This document shows positions 764 to 60,831 of a stretch of DNA of 64,000 bases, piece by piece. Position numbers and translations under genes: made by a program. Each line of letters begins with the position of its first letter. The first letter of the stretch is position 1. The stretch lies in NCBI GenBank assembly GCA_020432165.1, contig JAGQGU010000006.1, forward strand, positions 62,001 to 126,000, read 5' to 3'. The notes under the pieces are model-generated. The model saw nothing but the letters and a program-made list of their open reading frames with translations. It was not told the DNA's origin and did no database searches. The DNA comes from Thermomicrobiales bacterium (GTDB taxonomy: Bacteria > Chloroflexota > Chloroflexia > Thermomicrobiales > UBA6265).

Positions 764-2892
764 CTCGCACCATCGCTCTGGCGGGAAATCCCAATTCCGG
801 CAAATCCACTCTCTTCAATCGACTTACCGGATCGAAGCAATCTGTTGGTAACTGGCCGGGAGTAACGCTGGAACGCAAGGTTGGTCGGCTTCGCCAACAC
901 CCTGACGTTGCGATCGTCGATCTTCCGGGTGTCTATTCGCTCTCTGCCTACACATTGGAGGAGCGGGTTGCACGCGACTACCTGCTTGATGCCAAACCCG
1001 ATTGCATCATCAACATCGTTGATGGCACCAACCTCGAACGCAACCTCTTCCTGACCACGCAGCTGTTGGAGCTGGGTATTCCGGTGGTCATCGCCGTCAA
1101 TATGATGGATCTCGTGCGTCATCAGGGACTCACGCTTGATACCAGCCTGCTATCCCGCAACCTGGGTGTGCCAGTGGTGGAGATTAGTGCCTCGCACGGT
1201 AGCGGTATCGACCATCTGACGGATGCGGTGCTGCGTGGGCACACCGTACCAGCCTTGCTCCCATACACGCCGGAGCATGAGGCTGCGCTCGCAGCAATCA
1301 TGCAGGTGGTGGGGACCTCGAATCGCTGGATCGCCACCCAGGTGTTCGAGCGCGACGAGTTCGTGAATCCGCGCCTGCCGCAGATTGCCCGCGTGCAGGA
1401 GCAACTCGAGTCGATCATCACCAGGCGTGAAGATGCACTCGATGACGACGCCATTTCCATCATGGCTGCAGAGCGCTACACACAGGTGACCAATGTGTTG
1501 CCGGGTTCATTCACGTCGACATCGGCGCGGTCCCTGACCTTGAGCGATCACATTGATCAGATTGTCACCAACCGTTGGCTGGCGTTGCCAATCTTCGCGG
1601 TCGTGATGTTTGCTGTCTACTACATCGCGGTCACCACCGTTGGTACCTATGTGACCGACTACACCAACGATGTCATCTTCGGCAACTTTGTGCCGAATCA
1701 CGTTGCTGTCTGGTTGAGCGATATCGGTACCGCTGAATGGCTTAATCGCCTGGTGGTCGAAGGGATTATCGGCGGTGTCGGTGCTGTGCTTGGATTCGTG
1801 CCACAACTGATGTTGCTCTTCATCTTTTTGGCCATCCTGGAGGATAGCGGTTACATGGCGCGCGTGGCCTTCATTATGGATCGCGCCTTCCGTCATTTTG
1901 GTCTGAGCGGCAAGAGCTTTATCCCGATGCTGATTGGTACGGGATGTAGTGTCCCCGGCATTATGGCAAGCCGTACGATCGAGAACGAACGCGATCGCAA
2001 GCTCACCGCCATGACCACCAGTTTCATCCCGTGCGGAGCCAAGTTGGCGGTGATTGCCCTGATCTCCGGCGCCATCTTCCAGGGTGCGTGGTGGGTGGCA
2101 CCCAGCGCCTACTTCGTCGGCATGGCGGCGGTGATTCTGAGCGGCATCATTTTGAAGAAGTCAGTGCTGTTCAGCGGCGATCCTGCGCCTTTTGTAATGG
2201 AATTGCCACCCTATCACGCTCCTCGACCGAGTGTGGTGTTGCGCTCAATGTGGGATCGATCATGGGCGTTCATCCGTCGGGCTGGAACCATCATCCTGCT
2301 CGCCACCATGACCATCTGGTTTCTGGCTAATGTGGGGTGGCAACATGGTCCGCGCTTTGTTGACGATCTGGACAACAGCTTCCTGGCAGCGGTGAGTGGC
2401 AGTATCGCCTGGATATTCGCACCCCTTGGTTGGGGTACCTGGCAGTCCACGGCGGCGACCCTCTCCGGCCTCGTTGCGAAAGAAAGCGTGGTTGGTACCT
2501 TTGGTGTGCTCTACGGCGTGGCCGACGTTTCCGACGATGGAGCCGAGGTTTGGGGACAGCTGGCGGCCAGTTTCACGGTGCTCGCCGCCTATAGCTTCCT
2601 GCTCTTCAATCTCCTCTGTGCACCCTGCTTCGCGGCTATCGGCGCGATCCGACGGGAAATGGGTAACGGTCGATGGACAGCGTTTGCTGTCGCCTATCAA
2701 ACCGTCTTTGCCTGGACGATCTCGTTCATCTTCTATCAGGTTGGCATCGCGATCCGTGATCGCGCGGTTGATGGCTGGACCATCCTGGCGGTGGTGGCGT
2801 TAGCTGGCATCGTTTGGTTGTTGGTGAAAAAGCCTGCCCGGCCACGCCGGGCGGCAGTGGTCGCCAGTATTGGATCGGAGGCCACAGCATGA
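760..2892 (+). CDS. feoB: Ferrous iron transporter FeoB
   Basis: Polytopic inner-membrane Fe(II) permease, 710 residues, with an N-terminal GTPase. The G motifs are visible: G1 GNPNSGKS (9-16), G2 GVTLE (34-38), G3 DLPG (54-57), G4 NMMD (114-117). A helical linker follows to about residue 260, then the membrane region with the two Gate-type segments: GYMARVAFIMDR followed by GTGCSVPGIMASRTI, and later TLSGLVAKESVVGTFGVLYG and LCAPCFAAIGAIRREMG. The cysteines in GCSVPG and APCFAAI are the conserved FeoB pair. Length is normal for the family. It lies third in the feo operon, with ATGA overlaps on both sides, so FeoA and the Cys-rich protein should be made with it. Confidence 0.97.
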   Translation: MTRTIALAGNPNSGKSTLFNRLTGSKQSVGNWPGVTLERKVGRLRQHPDVAIVDLPGVYSLSAYTLEERVARDYLLDAKPDCIINIVDGTNLERNLFLTTQLLELGIPVVIAVNMMDLVRHQGLTLDTSLLSRNLGVPVVEISASHGSGIDHLTDAVLRGHTVPALLPYTPEHEAALAAIMQVVGTSNRWIATQVFERDEFVNPRLPQIARVQEQLESIITRREDALDDDAISIMAAERYTQVTNVLPGSFTSTSARSLTLSDHIDQIVTNRWLALPIFAVVMFAVYYIAVTTVGTYVTDYTNDVIFGNFVPNHVAVWLSDIGTAEWLNRLVVEGIIGGVGAVLGFVPQLMLLFIFLAILEDSGYMARVAFIMDRAFRHFGLSGKSFIPMLIGTGCSVPGIMASRTIENERDRKLTAMTTSFIPCGAKLAVIALISGAIFQGAWWVAPSAYFVGMAAVILSGIILKKSVLFSGDPAPFVMELPPYHAPRPSVVLRSMWDRSWAFIRRAGTIILLATMTIWFLANVGWQHGPRFVDDLDNSFLAAVSGSIAWIFAPLGWGTWQSTAATLSGLVAKESVVGTFGVLYGVADVSDDGAEVWGQLAASFTVLAAYSFLLFNLLCAPCFAAIGAIRREMGNGRWTAFAVAYQTVFAWTISFIFYQVGIAIRDRAVDGWTILAVVALAGIVWLLVKKPARPRRAAVVASIGSEATA

Positions 2893-55623: not shown

Positions 55624-55694
55624 CAACTGGGCACACATTGACGCCCGAGATACCAACACTCTATGCTGTGCTTGTTCTGGTTCGCCACCACTAG

Positions 55695-55880
55695 ATGTTG
55701 TGGTAGCGACGAAAGAAGGGAATCCGGTGCAAATCCGGAGCCGCCCCGCGACGGTAATGTGGGAACAACGCTCGTACGTATGCCACTGATCGGCGAGTCC
55801 GATTGGGAAGGCTGCGAGCCGAGGCCGCCGAGTTCACTCGGAGAGACCCCAAAGCCCGGAGACCTGCCGAACCACATGGC
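55695..55880 (+). ncRNA. Cobalamin (adenosylcobalamin) riboswitch
   Basis: Conserved blocks in order: GGGAATCCGGTGCAAATCCGGAGCCG (about 55718-55743, P3/P4 core), GCCCCGCGACGGTAA, GCCACTG (55782-55788), GGGAAGGC (55805-55812), and the B12 box AAAGCCCGGAGACCTGCC (55851-55868). TGTGGT (55699-55704) and ACCACA (55871-55876) form closing helix P1. It precedes nrdA by about 175 bases. High B12 should turn the operon off, so this B12-independent enzyme is made when the cofactor is short. Confidence 0.92.
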
Positions 55881-56008
55881 GTATCGCCGTGTGCTGAACC
55901 ATCGATCCTCGAGGGCGGGATCGTGGCTTTGCGCTTTTCGGCGACCCGATTGGCGTACGCCACTTTCTATACCCCAGATCAAACCAGGTTCAGGGCAGCA
56001 GGGGTGAC

Positions 56009-56051
56009 CGGATTCCCCAACGTTGACGTAGATCAACTGATGAGGAATCCG
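56009..56051 (+). promoter_or_regulatory. Shine-Dalgarno sequestering hairpin of nrdA
   Basis: CGGATTCC (56009-56016) pairs perfectly with GGAATCCG (56044-56051), which covers the AGGA ribosome-binding bases (56043-56046) of nrdA (ATG 56054). An inner stem GTTGA (56022-56026)/TCAAC (56033-56037) stacks inside. This is a good expression platform for translational control by the upstream riboswitch. Confidence 0.7.
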
Positions 56052-56053
56052 AT

Positions 56054-59000
56054 ATGACCGATGTGCTGAATGCCATTGCTATAACAACGGTGCGCAAACG
56101 CGATGGCCGAGTGGTACCCTACACGCGTGACAGGATTGCGCACGCGATCGAAATGGCGTGGCGCGCCGAGCTGGGTGTCCCATTCCCGGATGTGATGGAT
56201 GCTGGCGAAGCTCGTCGCATCGAAGCCGTGGCCGACGCTGTTGAAGCGCAGCTTCCGGCCATTGTCGATGCCGACAACGCTGTTGATGTGGAAAGCATTC
56301 AGGACATCGTCGAGCAGCAACTCATGATTGCTGGCGCGCATACCGTTGCTCGTCGCTACATTCTCTATCGCGATGCCCGGGCGCGAGCTCGCCAGGGTGC
56401 GACCATTCGGTTGATCGACCAGGATGGCACCGAGGTGCTCGTCAATCGGGCCGTAATTCGCGAATGGCTGGAGGATGCTGCCGGCACAATTGGAGCCGAG
56501 ATCGATCGCGACGATATTGAGCGCGAAGTGATGGCGAGCATCCGGGATGGCATGAAGCTGGCCGAGCTTGATCGCGCCATTGTTCTGGCCGGTCGTGCCC
56601 GTATCGAACGCAGGCTGGTCTATGGCACATTCACCGCGCGGGCACTCTTGCGCACGATCTACTCGGATGTCGTGGGCAAGCGTGTGAATGTGCGTGATGC
56701 CGAGCATTTCTACGCCGAGACCTTTGTGCGCAATATCCCCTTTGGCGTAGAGAATGATCTCCTGACACCAGAGTTGCTGAAGTTCAACCTCCCCAGATTG
56801 GCGGCGGCCCTCAAACCTGAGCGTGATCTCAAGTTCCGCTATCTTGGTCTGCAGACGCTCTTCGATCGTTATCTCATCCACCACAAACAGCAGCGAATCG
56901 AATTGCCGCAAGCCTTCTGGATGCGGGTGGCGATGGGGCTGGCCCTCGCCGAAACACCTGATCAGCGTGATGATCGTGCCATTGAGTTTTACGAAATGCT
57001 CAGCACATTCCGTGTCTGTAGCAGCAGTCCGACCCTTTTCAATGCTGGTACGCGTCATCCGCAGCTCTCCAGTTGCTTCCTCACCAGTGTTGAGGACGAT
57101 CTCGCGCACATCTTCAAGTCTGTTTCCGATAATGCGCTCCTGAGCAAGTGGAGTGGGGGACTCGGGAACGACTGGACGAATGTTCGCGCCCTCGGTAGCC
57201 GTATTCATGGCACCAATGGTCAGAGCCAGGGAGTGGTGCCATTCCTCAAGGTTGTGAACGATGCCGCTGTCGCGGTCAATCAGGGTGGCAAGCGGAAGGG
57301 TGCGGTGGCCGCCTACCTGGAAGTGTGGCACGCGGATTTTCTTGAGTTCCTCGATCTCCGTAAGAACTCGGGCGATGATCGCCGCCGCACGCACGATATG
57401 CATACCGCGGCCTGGATTCCCGATCTCTTCATGGAGCGTGTGCAGGCTAACGGAAGTTGGACGCTCTTCAGCCCCAGCGATGTGTCGGATCTGCATCACC
57501 TCTATGGCGATGCTTTTCGGGCGAAGTACGAGGAGTACGAGCTCGCCGCCCAGGACGGAGCATTCCCGAATAGCCAGACGATGTCTGCAACCGATCTGTG
57601 GCGGCGCTTGCTCAGCGCCACCTTCGAGACGGGTCATCCATGGCTAACCTTCAAGGATCCGAGCAATCTCCGTAGTCCGCAGGATCACACCGGTGTGGTG
57701 CACAACAGCAATCTCTGCACGGAGATTCTCCTGAACACCAGCATTGACGAGGTTGCTGTCTGCAATCTGGCAAGCATCAACCTGCCGACGCATATGGTGA
57801 ATGGCCAACTCGATCGCGAGATGCTCGGCGAGTCCGTGGCCACCGCCATGCGCATGCTGGACAACGTGATCGATATCAACTTCTACCCGATTCCGGAAGC
57901 AGAGAATGCGAACCAGAAGCATCGTCCGGTTGGTCTGGGCATGATGGGCTTCCAGGATTGCCTGTGGCAATTGGGGGTCAGCTATGCCAGCCCGGAGGCG
58001 ATGCAGTTCGCTGATGAGAGCATGGAGTTGATTAGCTGGTACGCGATTATGGCCAGCGCCCTGCTCGCCGGCGAACGCGGAACCTATAGCAGCTTTGCTG
58101 GTAGCAAGTGGGATCGCGATATTCTCCCGATCGATTCGCTTGCGCTCGTCGATGCCCAGCGCGGAACGCCCGTCGAGGTGAATCGCGATACCAAGCTGGA
58201 CTGGCAGCCGGTACGAGATGCCATCCGCGAGCATGGCATGCGCAACAGCAATACGATGGCGATCGCCCCGACCGCGACTATTGCCAATATTCAGGGTGTT
58301 ACCCAGAGTATTGAGCCGCTCTTCACCAATCTCTTTGTGAAGAGCAACTTGAGCGGTGAGTTTACGATCGTGAACGAATATCTCATTGCCGATCTCGAGC
58401 AAGCAGGCCTCTGGGACGATGATATGCTCGCCGAGCTCAAATACTGGGATGGTTCCATCGCGGCTATCGAGCGGATTCCGGAGGAGCTGCGCCGTGCCTA
58501 CCCGACAGCCTTCGAGATCGAGCCGGAATGGTTGATCGAAGCGGCCGCACGGCGACAGAAGTGGATCGACCAGGGGCAGAGTTTGAACCTCTACATTGCC
58601 GAGCCGAACGGCAAGAGATTGAACGATATGTACATGCAGGCGTGGTTGAGCGGCCTCAAAACCACCTATTACCTGCGGAGTCGTGGTGCCACCCAGAACG
58701 AGAAAAGCACCATTGATATCAATCGTTTTGGTCTGCAACCACGCTGGATGAAGAACGCCAGTGCCAGCGCCCGCGTTGGTGTCGATCGCGCACCTGCCTC
58801 AGACGTAGCCCCGGGGTACCGCAGGTGGCAGTCCGCTGCCCTTACCCCCGGGGAACGGGACGAGATGTCATCCCGAGGTTCTTCGGCTGCGCCCCAGAAT
58901 GACACTGAGATTTCATCTGGGCATGGTAGCGGGGCAGCTCGTCTGCCCCAGGCGGAGACAAGCTCCGCCGCTACCAATCGCGGGGCAGAGGTACTCCGGC

Positions 59001-59065
59001 AGGCACCGGAACTCAATCAAAACCTTCCCATCGAAGAGGAATTCGAATGCGAGGCCTGTCAATAG
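56054..59065 (+). CDS. nrdA: Ribonucleotide reductase large subunit, class I
   Basis: 1003 residues. N-terminal ATP-cone (VRKRDGRVVPYTRDRIAHAIEMAW, residues about 10-95) and a second, degenerate cone-like region (IRLIDQDGTEVLVNRAVIREWLED ..., 115-205). The ten-stranded barrel has redox Cys341 (SSCFL), thiyl-radical Cys555 in NLCTEI with Asn553 and Glu557, and Cys570 (VCNLASINL). The C-terminal shuttle pair is Cys999/Cys1002 (CEAC). Makes deoxynucleotides from ribonucleoside diphosphates with NrdB. The linker before the final cysteines (about 918-974) is encoded by a palindromic genomic repeat and is unlike the rest. RBS is hidden in a hairpin below the B12 riboswitch. Confidence 0.95.
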   Translation: MTDVLNAIAITTVRKRDGRVVPYTRDRIAHAIEMAWRAELGVPFPDVMDAGEARRIEAVADAVEAQLPAIVDADNAVDVESIQDIVEQQLMIAGAHTVARRYILYRDARARARQGATIRLIDQDGTEVLVNRAVIREWLEDAAGTIGAEIDRDDIEREVMASIRDGMKLAELDRAIVLAGRARIERRLVYGTFTARALLRTIYSDVVGKRVNVRDAEHFYAETFVRNIPFGVENDLLTPELLKFNLPRLAAALKPERDLKFRYLGLQTLFDRYLIHHKQQRIELPQAFWMRVAMGLALAETPDQRDDRAIEFYEMLSTFRVCSSSPTLFNAGTRHPQLSSCFLTSVEDDLAHIFKSVSDNALLSKWSGGLGNDWTNVRALGSRIHGTNGQSQGVVPFLKVVNDAAVAVNQGGKRKGAVAAYLEVWHADFLEFLDLRKNSGDDRRRTHDMHTAAWIPDLFMERVQANGSWTLFSPSDVSDLHHLYGDAFRAKYEEYELAAQDGAFPNSQTMSATDLWRRLLSATFETGHPWLTFKDPSNLRSPQDHTGVVHNSNLCTEILLNTSIDEVAVCNLASINLPTHMVNGQLDREMLGESVATAMRMLDNVIDINFYPIPEAENANQKHRPVGLGMMGFQDCLWQLGVSYASPEAMQFADESMELISWYAIMASALLAGERGTYSSFAGSKWDRDILPIDSLALVDAQRGTPVEVNRDTKLDWQPVRDAIREHGMRNSNTMAIAPTATIANIQGVTQSIEPLFTNLFVKSNLSGEFTIVNEYLIADLEQAGLWDDDMLAELKYWDGSIAAIERIPEELRRAYPTAFEIEPEWLIEAAARRQKWIDQGQSLNLYIAEPNGKRLNDMYMQAWLSGLKTTYYLRSRGATQNEKSTIDINRFGLQPRWMKNASASARVGVDRAPASDVAPGYRRWQSAALTPGERDEMSSRGSSAAPQNDTEISSGHGSGAARLPQAETSSAATNRGAEVLRQAPELNQNLPIEEEFECEACQ
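58805..58975 (+). repeat. In-frame palindromic repeat in nrdA linker
   Basis: First part 58805-58858: GTAGCC, CCCCGGGG (58809-58816), GGGTA/TACCC arms (58814-58818, 58844-58848) and inner GGCAG/CTGCC (58827-58831, 58836-58840). Last part 58925-58975: outer GGTAGCGG/CCGCTACC with GGGGCAG/CTGCCCC (58931-58949) and GGCGGAG/CTCCGCC (58951-58969), a three-way junction. The stretch reads through in frame and adds about 57 residues, rich in Ser, Ala and Gly. Confidence 0.75.
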
Positions 59066-59134: not shown

Positions 59135-60202
<1,068 letters not shown>

Positions 60203-60279: not shown

Positions 60280-60831
60280 CTAACCTGCTGGAGTCGCTTC
60301 CGTGACCGGTGCTACTGAGCCGGCTGGCCAGATACCAACGACAAATTCGATCTCGTTGCGGCTGCGATTCTCCGGTCGGATCATCACCCGGCCTTCTGTA
60401 CCGCTCTGATCCACTTGCGCCAGATCAAGCATGATGGCGCCATCGGCGTTCAGTGTGCCTTCCACATCGACACAGGCGAGGATCGGTGAGCGGGTGGAAT
60501 CGTCCTGATGAACCACCACCGCGTAGTCGCCACTGATCAATGTCTGCACATCGCCGATATGATCGATGTCATCAATCTCGCCCCACATTGAGTTCGGGCG
60601 ATCACCGCCGGTGCCGATCTCGCTCCAGACTCGTCGCAGCGTGATGCGATCGTTCTCGAGTTCAGAAATCTCGGTGGCGTTGCGGGAGTTGGCTGCTTCG
60701 GCACACGTGGTGCGATAGAGGTAGGCGGTTGGATCGTTATCCCAGATCTGTGCCGACGTGGTGAATCCTGGCAGTGCGAACATTGCCGCAATCACCGCAA
60801 CGCCTGCAGTTCGTATGAGTTTGGATTTCAT
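60280..60831 (-). CDS. Secreted hypothetical protein
   Basis: 183 residues. Signal peptide (LIRTAGVAVIAAMFALPGFTTSAQ), then one small domain with two cysteines (TTCAEAAN and LACVDVEG) and strands such as YAVVVHQDD, GTLNADGAIMLDLAQVD, GRVMIRPE, EIEFVVGIWPAG. I do not recognise a family. It has its own promoter at 60900-60928. It is convergent with nrdB. Confidence 0.6.
   Translation of the reverse strand: MKSKLIRTAGVAVIAAMFALPGFTTSAQIWDNDPTAYLYRTTCAEAANSRNATEISELENDRITLRRVWSEIGTGGDRPNSMWGEIDDIDHIGDVQTLISGDYAVVVHQDDSTRSPILACVDVEGTLNADGAIMLDLAQVDQSGTEGRVMIRPENRSRNEIEFVVGIWPAGSVAPVTEATPAG

Follow-up and report, generated by a model that had tools for sequence, protein, structure and literature searches.

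Class I cobalamin riboswitches of the Escherichia coli btuB type, and that of Mycobacterium tuberculosis metE, control the Shine-Dalgarno (SD) sequence through hairpin P13 and a kissing loop between loops L5 and L13. The M. tuberculosis ppe2 riboswitch has a class IIb-type aptamer and operates by an upstream open reading frame (uORF) relay, ppe2 having no SD of its own (PMC11260477). In Streptomyces coelicolor, a B12 riboswitch controls the ribonucleotide reductase (RNR) genes nrdABS, and this control has been reported to be transcriptional (Borovok et al. 2006, as cited in PMC4991794). Here, in a 64-kb stretch of a Thermomicrobiales genome (the window, meaning all 64,000 nucleotides analysed), we computed a cobalamin aptamer and several hairpins ahead of an nrdAB pair with class Ic residues, and elsewhere in the same genome a predicted NrdJ, a putative B12-uptake operon and an adenosyltransferase. 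We think it likely that, when B12 is available, the riboswitch lowers class Ic nrdAB while NrdJ supplies deoxynucleotides, so that nrdAB would serve as a B12-free backup. The elements of the locus are as follows.

55661..55885 (+): complete cobalamin riboswitch aptamer (RF00174; cmscan 90.9 bits, E 3.3e-21)
55744..55751 (+): L5 loop CCCCGCGA, the 5' half of the kissing interaction (from the sequence and 12 aligned nrd aptamers)
55853..55868 (+): B12 box AGCCCGGAGACCTGCC (RF00174 alignment)
55899..55926 (+): P13/L13 hairpin with loop UCGAGGGCG (alignment of nrd leaders, complementarity to L5)
55923..55963 (+): anti-P13 hairpin (GUGGC/GCCAC plus an inner helix), which excludes P13 (folds)
55923..56057 (+): possible upstream ORF of 44 codons, GTG to TGA, with an ATGA overlap with nrdA (sequence; start buried in the predicted folds)
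56009..56051 (+): hairpin whose 3' arm lies over the nrdA SD (-18.8 kcal/mol, z -4.3)
56042..56046 (+): nrdA SD GAGGA, 7 nt 5' of the ATG (sequence and fold)
56054..59065 (+): nrdA, class I RNR alpha subunit, 1003 aa, with one ATP-cone domain and a C-terminal CxxC (NF005544, 1305 bits; TIGR02506, 710 bits; PF03477, PF00317, PF02867)
59135..60202 (+): nrdB, class Ic beta subunit, with Phe137 for the radical Tyr, numbered from 59126 (NF005550, 595 bits; 1syy, E 3e-162; residues)

A first-pass annotation of this DNA had claimed a full cobalamin aptamer before nrdA and proposed an Rfam cobalamin model as a check. That model matched well above its gathering score of 31.5 and over its full length (positions 1-189), and it was the sole Rfam match above gathering in the window; the aptamer begins 34 bases upstream of 55695, where the annotation had started it. 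The element is a class I cobalamin riboswitch, and we infer that its ligand is probably adenosylcobalamin.

Directly 3' of the leader lie nrdA and then nrdB. NrdB and the Chlamydia trachomatis R2c protein (1syy, E 3e-162) can be aligned over 332 residues with no gap, and 1syy residues E89, E120, H123, F127, E193, E227 and H230 correspond to E99, E130, H133, F137, E203, E237 and H240, all seven being kept. In C. trachomatis R2 these positions are established as the six class Ic metal ligands and the radical-site residue. Judged from its sequence, NrdB is class Ic, with Phe for Tyr and the six metal ligands present; the residues bear out the earlier assignment to class Ic. The NrdB of the closest named relative, from which the genome is placed in Thermomicrobiales (Chloroflexota), is 90% identical, and among the 80 closest outside NrdB relatives the Tyr position is Phe in 79 and Leu in one (L009 5010-6008, Thermomicrobiales MAG SJ421, which retains all metal ligands). 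Beside nrdB, at 60280-60831 (-), the window encodes a putative secreted protein of 183 aa with no Pfam or NCBIfam match, a counterpart of which also adjoins nrdB in the sister species (L007 7216-7860). The sister further carries metE, by sequence a B12-independent methionine synthase (L007 1-2226 (-)), divergent beside its nrdA riboswitch (2539-2763 (+)); a histidine kinase occupies the equivalent position in the window.

The genome also has the B12-dependent class II reductase that the first-pass annotation implied: a predicted NrdJ, whose single gene is broken across the ends of two contigs (C39 and C64). The C39 part matches TIGR02504 at 531.9 bits, and the protein has the N-terminal domain of class II enzymes (PF08471) and a TSCPD domain. 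B12 uptake, on which the same reading depended, is represented by a putative operon behind a second riboswitch.

G000:C61:14711-14862 (-): second cobalamin riboswitch (L002, L118), preceding the putative B12-uptake operon

The first gene of this operon encodes an alpha-alpha-toroid protein, which we suggest may be a transcobalamin-like B12 binder; the others encode a small secreted protein, CbiQ and a double ABC ATPase. A PduO-type ATP:cob(I)alamin adenosyltransferase is encoded in the genome as well. CbiC was not found in the genome, which is given as 98% complete, so the organism probably scavenges B12, as judged from this one marker family. Together, NrdJ, the riboswitch-led uptake operon, the adenosyltransferase and the lack of CbiC support well the annotation's view of nrdAB as a backup under B12 shortage.

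The arrangement recurs across the order, where riboswitch-led nrdA occurs in 17 genomes (G000, G011, G013, G014, G016, G021, G023, G025, G026, G030, G053-G055 and G057-G060, with G014 counted from a reading of its leader and start). NrdJ or an NrdJ fragment accompanies it in 16/17, the exception, G011, being 75% complete. No cobalamin match was found in the available sequence at the nrdA of L145 (G017) or L150 (G039); no NrdJ was seen in G017, which is 78% complete, and NrdJ is present in G039. For 68 of the 80 outside relatives the sequence includes nrdA and extends 400 nt or more ahead of it, and these leaders were counted. At least 12 of the 68 class Ic leaders carry a cobalamin-clan riboswitch above gathering, matching RF00174 in L007, L008, L009, L010, L019, L030, L031, L035, L057, L061 and L069 and AdoCbl-II in L059; the true number may be higher, since beyond two covariance scans the loci were screened by core-motif search only. 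The bearers belong to Planctomycetota, Chloroflexota (Thermomicrobiales, Ktedonobacteria, Anaerolineae) and unplaced MAGs. The suggestion that such control is less usual with class Ic does not, then, hold among close relatives. In the literature searched, which covered few subscription papers, we found no report of a class Ic RNR under a cobalamin riboswitch; the link seems undescribed in the searchable literature, yet it is widespread among relatives, so the present case is largely expected rather than surprising.

What follows the aptamer differs between these leaders. Hairpins and then T-runs occur in L061, L059 and L019, and the expression platform appears to vary, with SD hairpins in some Thermomicrobiales and predicted terminators in Ktedonobacteria and Anaerolineae. 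In Anaerolineae CFX9 (L059 3346-3423), an AdoCbl-II aptamer (RF01689) replaces RF00174 before class Ic nrdAB and is followed by a terminator-like hairpin. L008, filed as Rubrobacter sp. LC5_2, has an nrd leader near-identical to that of Thermomicrobiales G026 (L095) and is probably a mis-binned contig.

In the aligned nrd leaders, a P13/L13 hairpin lies 3' of the aptamer, its L13 complementary to L5. L13 is GCGGG in most relatives, complementary to an L5 of CCCCGC. Both loops are altered in the window's genus with pairing retained, and by sequence L5 and L13 have changed together there. In the window, UCGAGGGCG pairs with CCCCGCGA at 6/7 positions, with one A.G mismatch, to give a duplex of -7.6 kcal/mol versus -5.3 when the window L13 is set against the family L5; the window duplex is weaker than the relatives' own duplexes (-10.5 to -14.2 kcal/mol). 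Between the window and its sister species (L007/L087), positions 55886-55925 are identical at 39/40 sites, above both the aptamer (188/223) and the start of nrdA (269/342).

When the leader is folded without the aptamer, the P13 3' strand pairs with a downstream CCAC (55923-55963) in both species, the sister having an equivalent predicted GUGG/CCAC helix. Because of this re-pairing, P13 and anti-P13 can be regarded as alternative states, and they are mutually exclusive in the predicted folds of both genus members. The first-pass description of the leader as an aptamer plus an SD hairpin is right as far as it goes, but it overlooked P13/L13 (55899-55926) and anti-P13 (55923-55963). In L088, L090, L091 and L092, from two genera, a second hairpin of the GTCGTCCGCGGGGACGGC type occurs about 100-150 nt past P13; its loop duplicates the L13 GCGGG and could compete for L5.

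The hairpin reported to cover the nrdA SD with its 3' arm was recovered, and none of 200 dinucleotide shuffles of 56009-56051 equalled its stability in a local fold. Only about 1% of the 82-nt stretches in the window contain a complement to GAGGAAUCCG of such quality, and the leader fold pairs the SD bases at about 98-100%, with the exception of one bulged A. Weaker, less local tests gave higher chance levels: 5% of shuffles hid the SD equally well once 60 nt of upstream context were added, and 17% did so when the region from P13 to the start was taken as a whole. In the sister the helix persists in register but is weaker (arm pairing -6.7 versus -12.7 kcal/mol in the window); by our reading of the alignment, one of its pairs has gone from A-U to G-C, one has been lost and one gained. 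Strong hairpins of differing sequence hide the SD in leaders L120-L124, which come from a different family of the order; in L120, L122, L123 and L124 each 5' arm finds its best partner in the 3' arm of the same leader, and L123 shows a compensatory C-G to U-A change relative to L120. By the shuffle test, significant SD hiding was not found in several further leaders from the family to which the window belongs.

The "direct translational off-switch" of the first-pass annotation found support in part. The SD is indeed hidden; the ligand-controlled step did not emerge, since the hairpin is predicted with and without P13 and is weaker in the sister. It persists in every static fold, whether unconstrained, with P13 forced, with the loop blocked or with P13 disrupted, so simple two-state folding yields no ON state. 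Static folds of the window leader, L120, L122 and L123 gave no ligand-dependent SD exposure; L124 was the only one of L120, L122, L123 and L124 whose fold changed, P13 leading to less SD exposure. An antisequestor for the SD hairpin was rejected, as the hairpin remains in all modelled states of the window leader, and a leader duplex between P13 and the SD region was rejected as an ON state because it also hides the SD. No NrdR box was found: ACACWATATATWGTGT had no match even when 3 mismatches were tolerated.

We infer that the output is most likely translational and is exerted by the hairpin over the nrdA SD. B12 binding would stabilise the L5-L13 kissing loop and hence P13; without B12, the P13 3' strand would instead pair downstream as anti-P13. 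With P13 presumed to act on it, the SD hairpin would lower nrdA translation when B12 is plentiful and the B12-dependent NrdJ makes deoxynucleotides, and nrdAB would take over when B12 is short. The same riboswitch and logic could also have a transcriptional output, which we consider unlikely: B12-bound P13 would expose a C-rich, G-poor stretch at about 55934-55997 to Rho, or untranslated nrdAB would be lost to Rho, with the SD hairpin secondary. The excess of C over G there (13-15 C and 7-8 G per 40 nt) fits such an output, as do the transcriptional control reported for Streptomyces nrdABS (Borovok 2006, cited in PMC4991794) and the hairpins followed by T-runs in the class Ic leaders of Ktedonobacteria (L061) and Anaerolineae (L059). 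However, the window leader has no intrinsic terminator, Rho sites are not establishable from sequence, and the SD hairpin is more stable than chance.

The persistence of the hairpin would be accounted for by a relay in the style of M. tuberculosis ppe2, whose leader operates through such a uORF (PMC11260477), but we regard this as a long shot. A ribosome starting at GTG 55923, helped by the SD-like GAGGG that L13 contains, would translate 44 codons, melt the SD hairpin and reinitiate at the ATGA, in which ORF 55923-56057 terminates exactly; B12 would hide the GAGGG in the kissing loop. Yet nrdA has its own SD, the GTG is predicted to be paired in both P13 and anti-P13, and an open frame of 44 codons has, by our estimate, about a 1/5 chance at the local composition. 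Moreover, an equivalent start is absent from other leaders, and the sister's frame is 22 nt different, runs in frame into nrdA and encodes no conserved peptide. A conserved uORF as a family feature was rejected, frame and peptide being kept neither in the sister nor in the family leaders. We give very little credence, too, to a constitutive SD hairpin free of direct aptamer action, with nrdA opened solely by a ribosome from the frame that starts in P13 and B12 gating leader translation; if true, B12 would control RNR through leader translation.

The sequences suggest that the Mn/Fe (class Ic) RNRs of free-living bacteria have repeatedly come under B12 control with a class II enzyme as partner, which would tie the economy of cobalt to that of Mn/Fe within a single regulatory decision. 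The relatives form a natural series, with one aptamer and differing platforms (SD hairpins, terminator-like hairpins), useful for the study of platform turnover.

Compared with the E. coli btuB type and M. tuberculosis metE, the aptamer architecture, the B12 box, the complementarity of P13/L13 to L5 and the placement of the SD in a hairpin are alike, but here the SD hairpin is separate, about 80 nt past P13, and is not P13 itself. With ppe2 the leader shares a uORF-like frame that begins at P13 and overlaps the controlled gene in an ATGA, and it differs in that nrdA has its own SD, the frame is not conserved and the ppe2 aptamer is of the class IIb type (PMC11260477). The enzyme resembles the C. 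trachomatis class Ic RNR (R2c, 1syy) in all seven diagnostic residues, but not in its cobalamin riboswitch control or its coexistence with NrdJ. The closest parallel in logic, already drawn in the first-pass annotation, is S. coelicolor nrdABS (Borovok et al. 2006, cited in PMC4991794): both have a riboswitch before an oxygen-dependent class I nrdAB, NrdJ in the genome and a backup logic. They differ in that the Streptomyces enzyme is class Ia and this one class Ic, in that no nrdS counterpart directly follows nrdB here, and in the transcriptional control reported there versus the SD-hiding hairpin here; the regulatory logic nonetheless matches, and the control is in this sense of a known kind.
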